A program made the translations under genes and the position numbers. From Acidobacteriaceae bacterium (lineage in GTDB: Bacteria; Acidobacteriota; Terriglobia; Terriglobales; Acidobacteriaceae): a stretch of DNA of 64,000 bases. Positions 10,567 through 60,069 of the stretch are shown here, one piece after another. A model generated the notes under the pieces. The model was not told the origin of the DNA, ran no database searches, and was given only the letters and a program-made list of their open reading frames with translations. The DNA is taken from positions 186,001 to 250,000 of the forward strand of contig JAOAPC010000024.1 of NCBI GenBank assembly GCA_025462735.1, given 5' to 3'. Position 1 is the first letter of the stretch. Every line of letters begins with the position of its first letter.

Positions 10567-10594
10567 GGTGTGGGGCGGGCGCCCTCGCCCGCCA
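10567..10594. repeat. 28-bp GC-rich palindromic element, copy 1 (intergenic)
   Basis: Between valS and nadC. The core is a hairpin with 8-bp arms GGCGGGCG (10574-10581) and CGCCCGCC (10586-10593) around loop CCCT, preceded by GGTGTG. The whole 28-bp unit is identical to 27437-27464, which lies inside the purL coding sequence. Confidence 0.9.
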
Positions 10595-10616: not shown

Positions 10617-13505
10617 CTAACCGCAGCCCAACTCGTGTAGCTTACTCCGAGTCTTCTGATGCATGACCGCGAGCTCCTGCTGCTGTTTTCGCAGGTTCTC
10701 CACAACTTGAGGAGGAGCCTTCGCCAGGAATTGCTCATTACCTAATTGGCGTTGTCCAGTGGTGATCCCCTTCTCGATCTTTTCCATTTCTTTCTTCAGC
10801 CGCTCACACTCGGCGGCAACATCGATCTTTTTTTCATAAATCAAACGGACGTCAAACCGGGCAGTGTGCCGCGCACCAGAAAGTTTGGCCATGGACTGTT
10901 CAACGAAACGTGCTTCCTCAACATTGGCGAGGCGTTCCAACGCGCTGGCATTTCTCTGAATTAGACTGCGGACAGCCGGCTCTTCCGCAAAAATCTCGAC
11001 AGGTACGCGCTGTTTCATCTCAACTTTAAGCTCGGCGCGCAAATTCCGCACACTTGCGATCAAGTCTTGCAGAATCGCCATCTCGGTTTCTGCTTTCGGA
11101 TCGATCTGCGATTCATCGGCCTGCGGATAGGCGGCCAACGCAAGCGATTTCAGCGGCGGATTACCGTCGTAAATAGCATGCCAAATTTCTTCGGTCATAA
11201 ACGGCATCACCGGATGCAGGAGGCGCAAAGATGCTTCGAACAATGCGACCAGGTTCCCGCACGTCGCGCGCGCAGTTTCTGACTCTGGCAAGAGGCGGGG
11301 CTTGATTAATTCAAGATACCAGTCGCAGAACTCACCCCAGAAAAAGTCGTAAATGGCATTTGCGGCTTCATCGAACCGATAAGCCCTGAGTGAATCGTTC
11401 ACGTTTTTCGTAACGCTGTTGAAACGCGAAAGGATCCAGCGGTCTTCGAGAGTTGTGGCCTGAAATCCAGAAATACCGGGCGTTCCGTGGGAGGCTTCGC
11501 GGGCGAGGGCATCCGCGCCACACATGCCCAAGCGGTCCACATTCATGAACATGAACCGCGCGGCATTCCAGATTTTGTTCGCGAATGCGCGATATCCTTC
11601 AGTCCGGCTCTCGTTGAAAGCGATATCTGTTCCCGGTGAAGACATCGCCGCCAGGGTGAAGCGCGTCGCATCGGTCCCGTACTTCTCAATTACCTGAATG
11701 GGATCGAGGACGTTGCCCTTGGTCTTCGACATCTTCTGGCGCTCGGCGTCGCGGACGAGGGCGTGGATGTAGACTTCGCGGAAGGGAACGCTGCTGCGAA
11801 GCTCGTCGTCTGTCAGTGCTGTTGATGTCCGCATAGGCCCGGCGGGCGAGCGTTGTTCGCCGAGGCTTGCTGCGCTAGCTGCGGCCGGGCGGGTCGGGGC
11901 ACCCGCCCCTACGTGTGCACTATTAGAGCGACGGGCGTCGCGCTCGTCCGCCCCAGGCTTCTCTGGCGGCGCCATGAACCAGCATCCCAGCATGATCATG
12001 CGCGCGACCCAGAAAAACAATATGTCGAAACCTGTGATCAGCAGCGAAGTCGGATAGAACACTTCGAGATCGCGTGTCGCATCCGGCCATCCCAGTGATG
12101 TAAACGGCAGCAAGCCGGAAGAAAACCAAGTGTCCAGAACATCCGGATCTTGCGTCAGTGCCGAGCCGCCGCACTTCGGACATTGTGTCCGCGCCTCGCG
12201 CGCGACGATGATTTCGCCACACTCGCAATGCCATGCTGGAATCCTGTGGCCCCACCATAACTGGCGCGAGATCGTCCAGTCGTGAATGTTGCGCATCCAG
12301 TTCAGATAAATCTGGCGATAGTTCGCCGGCGTAAAGCGAATGTAGTCTTTCTCGACCACTTCAATCGCTCGTTCCGCCAGCGGTTGAATTTTCACGAACC
12401 ACTGCGTCGAAAGCCTCGGCTCAACAACCGCTCCACAGCGATCGCATTTGCCGAGCGCGACCGTGTAGTCTTTTTCGCCTACAAGAAATTCCTGCGAGCG
12501 CAAGTCTTCCAACACGCGCTTCCGCGCTTCGTAGCGATCAAGGCCCGCGTACGGCCCGGCATTCTGGTTCATGCGGGCGTGCTCGTCCATGACTTCGATC
12601 TGCGGCAAGTTATGGCGCAGTCCAGCTTCAAAGTCATTCGCATCGTGCGCAGGAGTCACTTTCACCGCGCCGGTACCGAACTCTGGTTGCGCGAGTTCGT
12701 CAGTGATGATGGGAATCTCGCGGTTCATCAGCGGTAGCAGAACTTTCTTCCCGTGGAGATGTTTGTAGCGTTCGTCGCGCTCGTTTACGGCGACCGCTGT
12801 ATCCCCGAGCACGGTTTCAGGACGAGTTGTCGCAACTGTGATGAACTCATTGGTTCCGACCACCGGATACCGAATCTCCCATAGCTTGCCGGGAACTTCC
12901 TCGTGCTTCACTTCGAGATCGGAAATCGCAGTCACACAGCGTGGGCACCAGTTCACGATGTACTTGCCGCGATAGATCAGTCCTTGCTCATACAGGCGAA
13001 CGAACACTTCGCGCACCGCGCGCGAAAGGTTCTCGTCCATGGTGAAATACTCGCGGTCCCAATCGACCGACGCGCCCAGCCGCCGCATCTGGTCGAAAAT
13101 CGCACCGCCGTAGTGCTTCTTCCACTCCCAAACCCGCTCAATGAACTTCTCTCGCCCAAGGTCGGTGCGCTTCTTGCCTTCGCTGGCCAGTTGGCGCTCT
13201 ACCATCATTTGCGTGGCAATACCGGCGTGGTCCGTCCCAGGCAGCCACAGAGTCACGAAGCCGCGCATGCGGTGCCAGCGCACGATGATGTCCATCTGTG
13301 TCTGGTTGAGCATGTGCCCCATGTGGAGACGGCCAGTCACGTTCGGCGGCGGCAGCAGCAAGCAAAACACTGGACGCGTGTCGCCTACGGCTGGCGTGGC
13401 GACGGAAAAGAGCTTCTCCTTCACCCAAAATTCCGCCCATCGCGTCTCAATGGCCGAGGGCTCGTATGCCTTTGGCAATTCGGTTTTTGTTAGGTTCTCA
13501 GGCAT
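10617..13505 (-). CDS. valS: Valyl-tRNA synthetase with an in-frame insertion
   Basis: A 962-residue class I synthetase that charges tRNA-Val. HIGH-type motif [14 protein letters not shown], editing-domain region [17 protein letters not shown], a CxC...CxxC zinc site ([21 protein letters not shown]), and [12 protein letters not shown] are all present, and the C-terminal coiled-coil arm ([19 protein letters not shown]) is intact. Between GCWFMA and [13 protein letters not shown] (about residues 511-572), where other ValS proteins have only a few residues, there are about 60 extra, polar and Ala/Pro-rich. Their DNA (11787-11975) carries hairpins like the intergenic repeats. The frame is kept, so the enzyme is probably active. 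ATG 13505 is a good start. Confidence 0.96.
11835..11960. repeat. Composite palindromic insertion inside valS
   Basis: This stretch encodes the extra segment of ValS. It contains GTCGGGGC-ACCC-GCCCCTAC (11893-11912, arms of 8 with one mismatch), a weaker hairpin around GGCGAGCGTTGTTCGCC (about 11844-11861), and GAGCGACG...CGTCGCGCTC (about 11926-11947). It looks like two or three hairpin elements inserted in succession while keeping the reading frame. Confidence 0.65.
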
Positions 13506-13612
13506 GAAAAAACATTCAGCACTCAGCCATCAGCATTCGGCAAGCCAGCGGCGCAGCTGATCGTCAGACCTGCTCCGGTTGAATGCTGAGTGCTGAATGC
13601 TGAGTGCTGCTC
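13505..13612. repeat. Inverted repeat, CAGCACTCAGCATT family, upstream of valS
   Basis: ACATTCAGCACTCAGCCATC-type sequence at about 13509-13540 faces TTGAATGCTGAGTGCTGAATG and one further unit at about 13577-13609. The arms are complementary and each is built of short tandem TGCTGA units. It lies just upstream of the valS start. Function unknown. Confidence 0.65.
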
Positions 13613-27016: not shown

Positions 27017-29341
27017 ATGTCCACGGCGACCCTAGCCATTACACCTGAAGTCCTGCGCGGCCACGGACTGACTGCCGAGGAATACGCCCGCATTAAATCC
27101 CTGCTGGGCGGACGCGAACCGACGCTCACCGAACTCGGGATCTTCAGCGTGATGTGGAGCGAGCACTGCTCGTACAAATCATCGCGCGTACATTTAAAGC
27201 GGCTGCCGACTCGCAGCCGGCGCGTGCTACAAGGACCGGGAGAAAACGCCGGCATCGTTGATATCGGCGACGGCTGGGCATGCGCCTTCAAAATCGAATC
27301 TCATAATCATCCTTCATTCATTGAGCCGTTTCAGGGAGCCACGACCGGAGTAGGTGGAATCCTGCGCGACATTTTCACCATGGGCGCGCGCCCGGTGGCG
27401 GTAATGGATTCACTGAGATTCGGGCCGATCAGTGCTGGTGTGGGGCGGGCGCCCTCGCCCGCCAATTCCCATCGAGAGGATATTCGCCGCAACCATTCCA
27501 TACTCGAAGGCGTGGTCAGTGGCATCGCTTCTTATGGGAACTGCTTCGGAGTTCCCAATCTTGGCGGTGAAACCAAGTTCGAGCCTTGCTATTCCGGCAA
27601 TCCCTTGGTCAATGCATTTGCCTTGGGTCTAGTGCGCAAAGATCAAATCTTTTATGGGAAGGCCGCGGGTGAAGGCAATCCGGTAATTTACGTTGGCGCA
27701 AAAACCGGACGCGACGGCATTCACGGCGCGACCATGGCCAGCGAGGAATTCAGCGAGGAGTCGGAAGCCAAACGGCCCAACGTACAGGTCGGCGATCCAT
27801 TTCTAGAAAAGCTGTTGCTAGAAGCGTGCCTCGAAGCCATGCAAACCGGCGCCATTATTGGTATTCAGGATATGGGCGCCGCGGGGCTTACCTGCTCTAC
27901 TTGCGAAATGGGCGCGCGCGGTCACGTAGGGATCGAAATTGAGATGGACCGCGTGCCTCAGCGCGAGACCGGCATGAGCGCTTACGAAATTCTTTTGAGC
28001 GAATCGCAAGAGCGAATGTTGCTGGTCGCGCAAAAAGGCCGCGAGCAAGAAGTCTATCGCGTGTTCCGCAAGTGGGGGCTTGACGCGGTCGAAGTCGGTA
28101 AAGTGATCAGCGAAAACCGCATGCGTGTCCTGGAGCACGGTAAAGTTGTTGCCGAAATTCCGAATACCGCGCTTACCGACGATGCTCCGGTTTATCAACG
28201 TCCACTGAAGCGCTGGGAGCCGCCGGTGCCGGGCGGGATGCCAGACCACATAAAGCTCGGAAGCAAGGCTGATTTCACGGATGACCTGAAGCGCCTGCTG
28301 GGCAGCCCGAACATTTGCAGCAAGCGTTGGATTTATCAGCAATACGATTCCATGGTGCAGACCAACACGGTCGAGGGCCCGGGAGCCGGCGATGGCGGTG
28401 TGATTCGCATAAAAGGCTCGCAGCGGGGACTGTCGATGGCGCTCGATGGCAACAGCCGCTGGTGCTATCTCGACCCCAAACTCGGCGCGATGCACGCGGT
28501 TGCCGAGGCAGCCCGCAATGTGGCATGTTCGGGAGCAACTTCGGTTGGCGCCACGAATTGCTTGAATTTTGGCAATCCCGAAAAACCGCAGATCATGTGG
28601 CAGTTCTCGCAAGCGATTGATGGCATCACCAAAGCTTGCGAGGAATTAGAGATTCCAATCACTGGCGGAAATGTCAGCTTCTATAACGAAACCCTCGGCG
28701 AGGCGATTTATCCCACGCCAGTTCTTGGAGTGGTCGGAATTCTTGAAGATGTAGGCAAGGCTACATTTCCGCACTTCCGCGAACCAGGACACGCTGTAGT
28801 TTTGTTGCGCGGGTCAGAACCAGGAGACGCCACCGATGCCGAGGTCGAATTTGGCTCGTCCGAATACGCCAAAGAAATTCTCGGCGAGCTGTGGGGATTT
28901 CCTCCTGCGCTGGAACTTGAGAAAGAAGCCGCGCTGCAGAAGGCAATCGTCGAACTGATCGAGGCCGGATTGATTGACTCGGCCCATGATTGCTCGGAAG
29001 GGGGGCTGGCGGTGGCTTTGGCCCGGGCGTCATTCGCAAAGAGCATTGGTTGCAGCATCGAGTTGAGCGCCAACGACCTTGCACCAGAATTTGTGCTTTT
29101 TGGCGAAGATGCCAGTCGGATCGTGATCTCCTGCGACCCCGGCAATGTGGCGCGAATCAAACAAGTAGCGCAGAAACATGGGATTTTTGCCGATCAATTG
29201 GGGGAGACAGTTCCTGAGACAATAGATATTAGGTTGGACGGTCGTATGGTCATTTCGGCTACTGTCTCCGAATTGAACGACGAGCACGAAGGTGCGCTGG
29301 AACGTATGTTGCGGAGTGAACCTGCGGTAATGGCAGATTGA
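27017..29341 (+). CDS. purL: Phosphoribosylformylglycinamidine synthase subunit PurL, with small insertion
   Basis: A 774-residue PurL of the multi-subunit type (FGAM synthetase, step 4 of purine synthesis). Key segments are [19 protein letters not shown], the ATP-binding [61 protein letters not shown], and [11 protein letters not shown]. After DSLRFGPI there are about 13 extra residues ([13 protein letters not shown]) before the conserved [17 protein letters not shown]. Their DNA includes a 28-bp palindromic element identical to one in the nadC-valS spacer. Frame and all motifs are intact. purF follows 102 nt downstream; purQ and purS are not adjacent. Confidence 0.96.
27437..27464. repeat. 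28-bp GC-rich palindromic element, copy 2 (inside purL)
   Basis: Identical over all 28 positions to 10567-10594. It is read as GVGRAPSPA in PurL. Arms GGCGGGCG and CGCCCGCC surround loop CCCT. Flanking bases differ from copy 1 on both sides, which defines the element ends. Confidence 0.9.
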
Positions 29342-31336: not shown

Positions 31337-31386
31337 GTACGGGCGTCTCGCCCGTACTCACCATTTGACGGGCGAGGACGCCCGTC
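31337..31386. repeat. Pair of GC-rich hairpins
   Basis: GTACGGGCG-TCT-CGCCCGTAC (31337-31357) and GACGGGCG-AGGA-CGCCCGTC (31367-31386), both perfect stems, are separated by nine bases. They share the arm length and loop size of the elements inside purL and prmC. Confidence 0.8.
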
Positions 31387-31424
31387 ACTCCACATCATTC
31401 TTTACTCCTTCGAAACAATATTGA

Positions 31425-31557: not shown

Positions 31558-32463
31558 CTATGGCTTCTGCGCCGCCGCCACTCGCGCAATTCCTTGCAGA
31601 TCGTTTGTGATCCGAACGTTCTCCCACGCCGTCAACAATTCTTTGACTCGGGACGCGATCGTCCCGCTGATCTCCATGACTAGCCAGCCGCCGGGTTTGA
31701 GTACGCCAGACGCTTGTGGAACAAGCCGTTCGATGACCTCCAAACCAGTCGGCCCGGCAAATACCGCGTTACGCGGTTCGAACTTCCGCACTTCCATCTG
31801 AACTTGATCTTCCTCCGATTCGCCGACGTAGGGAGGATTGGAGACTACAAAATCAAAGTAATTTTTCTCGATTCCGGCCAGCAAATCGGTTTCGTGAAAT
31901 TGAATTCGTTTTTCAAGCTGGTGCCGCGCAGCGTTGGCGCGAGCGATCTCTAATGCGGCGGATGAAATCTCTGTAGCGTGGATTTCGGCCCGCGGCAGCT
32001 CTTTGGCGAGCGCCAGCGCAATGGAACCGGAGCCGGTACCGACGTCAACGATGCGCGAGCCCTCTGCCGACCTCTTCTGACTTGAGGAATTGGAGAGGGA
32101 CTGGTCGGACAGGAATGTCCGACCCACACGGCCTGTGCTGATACGAGCCAGCACCTCCTCGACCACGTGCTCCGTCTCGGGCCTAGGAATCAGCACTGCC
32201 GGGGAAACGATTAGATCCATGCCCCAGAACTCCTGGTGCCCTGTGATGTATTGCGCAGGAATGCCTTTTGAGCGCTGAACGAGGGCGTTTTTGTATATCG
32301 ATTCTTCGTCTCTGGTCAGTTCGCGTTCGGGATGTCCGTAGAGATAAGCTCGATCGCAACGAAGAGCAAACATGAGCAGCAGCTCGGCATTCAGTCGAGG
32401 AGAGGGTACCTGAGAAGATGTCAGGCGGTGGATCGCGGACTTCAACACATCGCCAAGCAGCAC
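31558..32463 (-). CDS. prmC: Peptide chain release factor N5-glutamine methyltransferase, with insertion
   Basis: A 301-residue PrmC/HemK, which methylates the GGQ glutamine of release factors. The helical N-terminal domain includes PAQYITGHQEFWGMDL and VLIPRPETEHVVEE. The SAM site is IVDVGTGSGSIALALA (138-153), and the catalytic NPPY is at 209-212 in VSNPPYVGES. Residues 111-135, between VLARIS and the SAM site, are about 23 extra residues (with GRTFLSDQSLSNSSS) whose DNA holds a perfect hairpin at 32104-32123. ATG 32463 is a good start. prfA, the usual neighbour, is not here. Confidence 0.94.
   Translation of the reverse strand: MLLGDVLKSAIHRLTSSQVPSPRLNAELLLMFALRCDRAYLYGHPERELTRDEESIYKNALVQRSKGIPAQYITGHQEFWGMDLIVSPAVLIPRPETEHVVEEVLARISTGRVGRTFLSDQSLSNSSSQKRSAEGSRIVDVGTGSGSIALALAKELPRAEIHATEISSAALEIARANAARHQLEKRIQFHETDLLAGIEKNYFDFVVSNPPYVGESEEDQVQMEVRKFEPRNAVFAGPTGLEVIERLVPQASGVLKPGGWLVMEISGTIASRVKELLTAWENVRITNDLQGIARVAAAQKP
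32104..32123. repeat. Palindromic element inside prmC
   Basis: GTCGGACA-GGAA-TGTCCGAC is a perfect 8-bp stem with a 4-nt loop, followed by CCCACAC. It encodes the VGRTFLSD part of the extra segment in PrmC. GTCGGACATTCCTGTCCGAC-type palindromes also occur between genes in related genomes (from memory). Confidence 0.8.
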
Positions 32464-37529: not shown

Positions 37530-37568
37530 TATGGCTTCGGCGAACACCGCCGAAGCCATTTTCGTTTC
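37530..37568 (+). terminator. Rho-independent terminator of the porin gene
   Basis: ATGGCTTCGGCG-AACAC-CGCCGAAGCCAT followed by TTTCGTTT. A perfect stem of about 11 bp with a T-rich tail, 20 nt after the porin stop. Confidence 0.85.
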
Positions 37569-37592: not shown

Positions 37593-37629
37593 CAACAAGG
37601 AAGCCCGTATAGGACAGGAGGGCGCGGCC
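37593..37629. repeat. 37-bp direct repeat, left copy
   Basis: Contains CAAGCCCGTATAGGACA-type sequence (here GGAAGCCCGTATAGGACAGG) and GAGGGCGC. It matches 39421-39457 at 34 of 37 positions. The two copies bracket the AlbA_2/ATPase regulator genes. Confidence 0.85.
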
Positions 37630-39420: not shown

Positions 39421-39457
39421 CAACAAGCAAGCCCGTATAGGACAAGAGGGCGCAGCC
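39421..39457. repeat. 37-bp direct repeat, right copy
   Basis: GCAAGCCCGTATAGGACAAG with flanking CAACAA and GAGGGCGC. Matches 37593-37629 with three differences. It starts 29 nt after the stop of the split regulator. Confidence 0.85.
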
Positions 39458-60047: not shown

Positions 60048-60069
60048 GCCCGGGTTCGAGAACCCGGGC
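60048..60069. repeat. Perfect GC-rich hairpin
   Basis: GCCCGGGTT-CGAG-AACCCGGGC, a 9-bp perfect stem with a 4-nt loop followed by CCCCAC. It has the same architecture as the elements inside valS, purL and prmC. It lies between the FixJ-type regulator and a secreted protein gene; no T-tract follows. Confidence 0.8.

Follow-up and report, generated by a model that had tools for sequence, protein, structure and literature searches.

The window, a stretch of 64,000 nucleotides from an acidobacterial genome, contains the gene purL on the forward strand (27017–29341). It encodes an FGAM synthase II of 774 amino acids, as assigned by the Pfam domains AIRS, AIRS_C and FGAR-AT_linker and by PDB homologues. 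Within this gene, positions 27437–27464 are identical over 28 of 28 bases to positions 10567–10594 on the same strand, which lie in the spacer that separates the 3' end of valS from the 5' end of an ORF of 292 amino acids, putatively labelled nadC in the initial annotation. The flanks of the two copies differ, and the identity between an intergenic spacer and purL reported in that annotation was confirmed by a repeat comparison within the 64-kb window. The 28 identical bases had been described as a palindrome of the same length, but the perfect palindrome, GGCGGGCG-CCCT-CGCCCGCC, spans only 20 bp (10574–10593 and 27444–27463) with an 8-bp stem and a CCCT loop. The other bases of the 28-mer belong mainly to a foot on the 5' side, GTGTGG (27438–27443 in purL), which is common to other copies. 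The hairpins fold strongly (−19 to −21 kcal/mol), with modest z-scores of −1.1 to −2.7.

The purL copy is read in frame, residues 141–149 of PurL being GVGRAPSPA. It is annotated here as a REP on the basis of its identity to the intergenic copy, its fold, a gap in a homologue, and an equal element at the equal purL position, with different flanks, in another species of the same genus (G004). The presence of the element in the purL of G004 excludes an assembly error as the source of the 28-bp match. When the 20-mer core was searched with up to three mismatches, three matches were found in the window, compared to a mean of 0.03 in shuffled sequences and none of 100 shuffles reaching three, so a chance match was set aside. 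A terminator was set aside as well, since no T-run follows either hairpin.

Two further genes of the window, both on the reverse strand, host elements of this type. The gene valS (10617–13505, 962 amino acids) contains two inserts. The first is a REP with two mismatches (11498–11523, reverse strand), read as CGADALAR and located at an eight-residue gap in the ValRS of 1gax. The second is a composite insert of 61 residues (11787–11969, reverse strand; residues 513–573), where the ValRS of 1gax has two residues. It includes a GTAG-type REP at 11887–11912 and, judged by eye, a hairpin resembling the TGGAGG class at 11926–11948. Just upstream of valS, at 13513–13599, an inverted repeat with CAGCACTCAGC units was observed. 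The gene prmC (31558–32463, 301 amino acids) hosts one REP of the GGACA subfamily (32103–32129, reverse strand), read in frame as VGRTFLSD, and the insert region comprises 27 residues compared to four in HemK of 2b3t. Outside prmC, two class-2 REP hairpins face opposite ways at 31337–31390 (31337–31357 on the forward and 31366–31390 on the reverse strand), a stretch also covered by a putative ORF of 158 amino acids with a TTG start on the forward strand.

The 28-mer belongs to a population of REPs whose unit, of about 27–30 nt, combines a G-rich foot with an 8-bp hairpin and occurs singly or as an inverted pair. The genome belongs to the Acidobacteriota and comprises 4.36 Mb on 24 contigs. Among the matches listed, from which records of the genome itself are possibly absent, its nearest named PurL relative is an Acidobacteria gp1 assembly with 81% identity. 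The exact 24-mer is present in four copies, and 29 copies are found within three mismatches. A degenerate REP pattern gave 95 matches compared to 10 in the reversed control, the many dispersed copies typical of REPs. Seventy stretches were taken around the 95 matches, leaving aside chance-looking ones, and 82 distinct elements resulted. Of these, 48 start with GTGG (36 having the exact GTGTGG foot) and 26 contain TGGAG (24 being exactly TGGAGG). Seven or eight of eight stem positions are paired in 76 of the 82, although the search pattern itself favours pairing. An exact GTGTGG or TGGAGG foot is combined with at least seven of eight stem pairs in 55 distinct elements, corresponding to the foot and palindrome of a REP unit of 20–40 nt. 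The outer flanks of the 82 elements show no conservation. The main families lack the GTAG foot and have GTGG or GAGG instead; a GTAG unit is present in valS and beside the C23 Y1_Tnp gene. Six inverted pairs have a spacing of 38–121 bp and another one of 214 bp, in addition to one self-overlap, which is the arrangement of REPINs and BIMEs. In total, 11 pairs of any kind (one a self-overlap) lie within 250 bp, compared to 0.5 expected. An inverted pair is also found inside the LeuRS of this genome (G000) and of G003. The 24-mer pattern occurs in 25 of 61 related genomes, this one included, and the reversed control gave three matches, in three genomes outside the ten whose purL palindromes are assigned to dispersed sets below.

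Of 28 element-bearing ORFs that were scanned, 23 have Pfam matches. The firm set consists of 21 elements in 19 Pfam-supported genes, and 20 of the 21 belong to the 82 pattern elements. The host genes encode an ABC exporter, LeuRS (three elements), ThrRS, UbiD, a MacB/FtsX protein, DnaE, ribonucleotide reductase, MoeA, an HD-domain phosphohydrolase, a molybdopterin oxidoreductase, PolA, MetH, TldD, an ABC ATPase, LigA, LipB, a peptidyl-arginine deiminase family protein, TrmFO (GIDA in Pfam, TrmFO in the PDB), and PurL. The 21 elements were chosen and their frames assigned by hand, and ValS and PrmC were found later and stand outside them. Copies are therefore found inside 21 genes of this genome, three of which (PurL, ValS and PrmC) lie in the window. 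Also outside the frame count are a second element in ribonucleotide reductase (L059), those in M56 (L228), ParB (L217), a Cys/Met enzyme (L220), PALP (L060), and SCO1 (L196), and five ORFs that have no Pfam match (L229, L050, L048, L034, and L194). More REP-like peptides were noticed by eye in the inserts of LigA, LipB, MetH, and L226, and these are likewise not part of the 21. Coding copies occur in both orientations, and their reading frames place them in frame within host proteins, as in Rickettsia palindromic elements (RPEs).

For LeuRS, PurL, DnaE, LigA, LipB, TrmFO, ValS, and PrmC, homologues in the PDB show gaps that coincide with the element or adjoin it. The gap is exactly ten residues long in DnaE. 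The gaps in LeuRS lie beside and partly within the REP peptides, with no clean overlap. In ThrRS, the two blocks flanking the element follow each other directly in the homologue, although the first of them is weak, and in PolA the element region is unaligned. Ten element-bearing ORFs from other genomes were scanned as well. Six are clear cases, namely AlaRS, a ClpA/B-type ATPase, TrmD, UvrC, a radical SAM protein, and HemD; two of the remaining four have mainly TPR-type matches and two have none.

Filled and empty sites were found among close relatives. For dnaE, 30 loci were fetched and 22 were scripted (eight were left out), of which 11 were readable and 11 were missed by the regular expression and are thus unread. 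Two readable loci are filled, those of G000 and G003, and nine are empty (G001, G002, G021, G013, G016, G012, G025, G034, and G032). The site reads RKE-LAGEGAHATQV-GRF in G000, and at the same site G003 carries one REP and half of another. Relative to the sister species, the filled site shows a gain of 30 nt, and full-length dnaE matches in the other listed genomes of the family span 720–738 nt, compared to 750 nt in G000 and 762 nt in G003. For leuS, 19 of 30 loci were readable and the 11 missed by the regular expression are unread, including that of G001, which was later found to be filled. The editing-domain loop of LeuRS contains one or two REPs in G000, G002, and G003, one in G001, and another palindrome in G004, and no palindrome was seen in 15 of the 19 readable loci.

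The loop following DSLRFGPI in PurL is a recurrent landing site that is filled by different REP families in different lineages. The initial annotation had assumed that homologues have no extra residues at this position. This holds for the T. thermophilus PurL of 3viu, which has a 16-residue gap around the element. Within the phylum, by contrast, the site is already a longer and variable loop, because acidobacterial DSL...E segments without a recognised insert mostly have 22–30 residues (two have 17–18). The segment was readable in 58 of 80 named PurL loci, and most non-acidobacterial ones have 18 residues. Altogether, 89 distinct PurL loops were read from a sample enriched for long loops, as split matches were chosen from among the matches listed. 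In the loops read, the extra residues go together with the DNA repeat, in line with the initial annotation, and a perfect stem of at least 7 bp is present in 21 of 45 long loops compared to 1 of 44 short ones.

Several families were recognised in this loop by eye. The GTGTGG class is present in the forward orientation in G000, G004, G016, and G021 and in the reverse orientation in G305 and G099. A TGGAGG-like unit occurs in G001, the GGACA subfamily in reverse in G002, an ACGGGGC pair in G191 and G285 with a related form in G174, and GGACAGCCG in G152, G276, and G283. In ten genomes (G000, G004, G021, G191, G285, G174, G152, G276, G283, and G002), the purL palindrome belongs to the dispersed set of the host genome itself, and the specific patterns gave no reversed-control match in any of them. 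The purL copies of G089, G136, G253, G011, G013, and G310 were not matched by the dispersed-family patterns tried. Specifically, the pattern matching the set of G002 has 11 copies in G013, none of them in its purL, and none in G011 and G310. The pattern of the G191, G285, and G174 sets is absent from G013 and has four copies in G253, none in its purL, and that of the G152, G276, and G283 sets has five copies in G089 and two in G136, leaving the purL palindromes unmatched. Other palindromic or repeat-like stretches, CCTTTCCGCG...CGCGGAAAGG and CTTCGACAAGCTCAGGGC, were seen in the purL loops L178 and L179 of G310 and G268. In G008 the loop (L110) is filled by a AGTCAGCAATCAGC stretch resembling the units upstream of valS, and a second, non-REP repeat family may thus also enter it.

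Species within the genera g1, g7, and g28 carry different PurL-loop elements or none, and the loop has thus been hit repeatedly. The PurL tree has too few firm nodes for a count of gains, although each distinct element implies an event of its own. The structure prediction gives residues 141–150 a mean pLDDT of 50 compared to 87.7 overall, a low value that is partly expected for residues lacking in aligned sequences. They are located between a strand (125–135) and a helix (149–177), and residues 145–147 are the only internal run of at least three residues below a pLDDT of 50.

The coding copies show a reading-frame bias. None of five consensus REP units contains a stop codon in any of the six frames. 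A single frame, yielding peptides of the AGEGARAT, ADKSVRAT or TGEDARAS type, accounts for 13 of the 21 firm elements (P = 4e-6; 2.4e-5 after correction for six frames). When CGADALAR of ValS and the PrmC element are added, the count is 13 of 23 (corrected P = 9.9e-5). Four of the six clear cases in relatives are in the preferred frame, and the radical SAM protein (L009) and HemD (L014) are in other frames. The arginine-rich frame with tryptophan near its start is used by none of the 21. This bias is consistent with random insertion followed by selection that removes harmful peptides, and tolerance alone could account for it.

The Y1 HUH enzymes known as RAYTs cleave REPs in single-stranded form close to the foot. 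As far as the accessible part of the source goes, the foot is GTAG "most often", not always, and one RAYT still cuts a substrate in which GTGG replaces GTAG (PMC8266576). The genome contains 12 Y1_Tnp genes, and such genes are present in 50 of 61 related genomes, with the restriction that PF01797 cannot tell RAYTs from IS200-type transposases. G005 and G006, the two genomes of the same genus that lack the 24-mer, have no Y1_Tnp match either, which is an observation on two incomplete genomes and not a test. Downstream of the C23 Y1_Tnp gene lies an array of REPs with a GTAG foot and a CCCT loop, and upstream only a remnant was seen by eye. The composite ValS insert aligns to this array with a score of 90, compared to a maximum of 59 in 200 shuffles. 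This match ties such an array to a coding insertion; it is no proof that the C23 enzyme moves the GTGTGG family. An exact GTGTGG REP lies about 340 bp downstream of the C17 Y1_Tnp gene, but the gene itself is bracketed by the GGCACGACT family, and several Y1_Tnp genes of G000 lie between other palindromes. Because of these other palindromes, and because none of 41 Y1_Tnp loci is flanked on both sides by a GTGTGG-type REP within 600 bp, the cognate enzyme is not proven, and a RAYT for the GTGTGG family is suggested as a candidate only. In this genome, L236 and L241 are Y1_Tnp genes bracketed on both sides by another family, GAAG-GGCACGACT..AGTCGTGCC, and related GGCACG palindromes are found on both sides of L237 and L240. 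A textbook REPtron layout is seen at L070 (G051) and L075 (G025), where inverted GTAG-CCCACAGCG..CTGTGGG hairpins stand on either side of the Y1_Tnp gene.

The elements are very probably REPs and REPINs mobilised by RAYTs, whose in-frame insertions survive in disordered loops. A resident RAYT, an HUH Y1 transposase, most likely copies REPs about the genome by acting on single-stranded DNA. An insertion that keeps the frame in a disordered surface loop would be translated into about 9–10 extra residues and tolerated, because the consensus units are free of stops in six frames. Insertions elsewhere would be purged, and the added peptides are presumably neutral, with the host proteins made and active. 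The PurL loop would act as a harbour, refilled in separate lineages by whichever REP family is active there. The suggestion of a mobile or copied palindrome that entered an essential enzyme in frame is upheld by the dispersed copies, the in-frame position in PurL, and the site in G004. In relatives of this soil bacterium as in the bacterium itself, very small mobile hairpins have repeatedly entered loops of essential enzymes such as PurL in frame, and the selfish DNA would be translated into a few extra amino acids.

A more far-reaching proposal, which we regard as tentative and rather doubtful, is that the REPs of this acidobacterial family are adapted to intragenic life. The stop-free unit of 27 nt (nine codons), the benign AGEGARAT-like frame, and a few shared safe-harbour loops of essential enzymes, PurL first among them, in which unrelated families replace each other would be parts of this adaptation. 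If true, harbour loops would be a readable fossil record of the REP/RAYT family active in each lineage.

Alternatively, the copies could owe their spread to gene conversion or slippage, with recombination or a switch of template from one hairpin to another, and no RAYT would then be needed. The lack of an examined Y1_Tnp gene with GTGTGG-type REPs on both sides is compatible with this, and the stem variants at one PurL site (GG..CC in G000 and G004, CG..CG in G021) are what conversion between resident copies could give. Nevertheless, this route is unlikely, as dnaE gained 30 nt relative to the sister species and the flanks of the copies are unconserved. The frequency of Y1_Tnp in relatives, the joint absence of 24-mer and Y1_Tnp in G005 and G006, and the match between the array beside the C23 gene and the ValS coding insert speak against it as well.

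Domestication of the coding copies, with an mRNA hairpin or the peptide controlling how the host enzyme is translated or how active it is, and with selection retaining the copies, is considered very improbable. Same-genus orthologues have no copies or unrelated ones, and insertion in both orientations does not favour such a role. The strong folding of the hairpins is consistent with it, but the fold z-scores are modest, and the preference for one frame is open to the explanation by tolerance given above. Several tRNA synthetases and DNA enzymes are among the hosts, a parallel to the intragenic REPs of PMC3733652 as far as the accessible part of that report shows. Ordinary indel drift in GC-rich DNA with a coincidental 28-mer match has practically no chance of being correct. 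In its favour, the hypervariability extends to loops without palindromes, 24 of the 45 long ones lacking a perfect stem of at least 7 bp. The shuffle expectation of 0.03, the dispersal of the family in the same genome, and the absence of control matches refute it for the ten genomes above.

RPEs are the classic case of in-frame palindromic selfish DNA in proteins. The likeness to them drawn in the initial annotation stands insofar as palindromes are inserted in frame in unrelated proteins. The elements described here are otherwise REP-like, with foot and hairpin, inverted pairs, Y1/RAYT-type genes, and a length of about 27–30 nt in Acidobacteriota. In contrast, RPEs are described in the accessible part of the source as about 150 bp long and belong to an obligate intracellular genus (PMC10969869), a distinction by description and not by sequence. 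With REPs, REPINs and BIMEs and their RAYTs (TnpA-REP), the elements share the 20–40 nt unit of foot and hairpin, dispersed copies, inverted pairs, and Y1 genes in the genome. They differ in the foot, GTGTGG or TGGAGG instead of GTAG, in the many intragenic copies, and in that the cognate RAYT is only suggested.

Intragenic REPs were reported in 2013 for Proteobacteria, Opitutus, and Rickettsia. The accessible part of that report describes GTAG/CGTC REPs and REP dimers within genes for DNA repair, polymerases, and tRNA synthetases from several species, as well as two different REPs at about one recB site in two Xanthomonas species, and mentions Acidobacteria just for TIR-flanked transposases (PMC3733652). 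Unlike in that part of the report, a single PurL loop is hit here by several REP families across one bacterial family, relatives have empty sites, and the frame bias was measured. For the class 3 TnpA-Y1 of Solibacter, about 600 associated secondary structures with a CnGA foot were described in one genome (PMC6006769). These are likewise transposase-associated structures of Acidobacteria, but they differ in the foot, and intragenic copies are unmentioned in the accessible part of the paper. No report of intragenic REPs in Acidobacteria was found in the article listings and text passages searched. Intragenic REPs and RPEs are thus known as such; the lineage, the frame bias, and the targeting of one loop by unrelated REP families appear to be new.

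REPs are usually treated as extragenic, yet they look like a regular source of new sequence in core enzymes of Acidobacteriota, namely tRNA synthetases, the replicative polymerase, ligase, and purine synthesis, with filled and empty sites in close relatives. Such sites make target choice, length, frame, and loop tolerance directly measurable. For users of structures and alignments, some acidobacterial protein loops may be translated mobile DNA.

The window also contains other repeats. A 37-nt direct repeat (37593–37629 and 39421–39457) is 92% identical between copies 1.8 kb apart, and strong hairpins with stems of 12 bp and 9 bp, lacking a REP foot, are located at 37531–37559 and 60048–60069.
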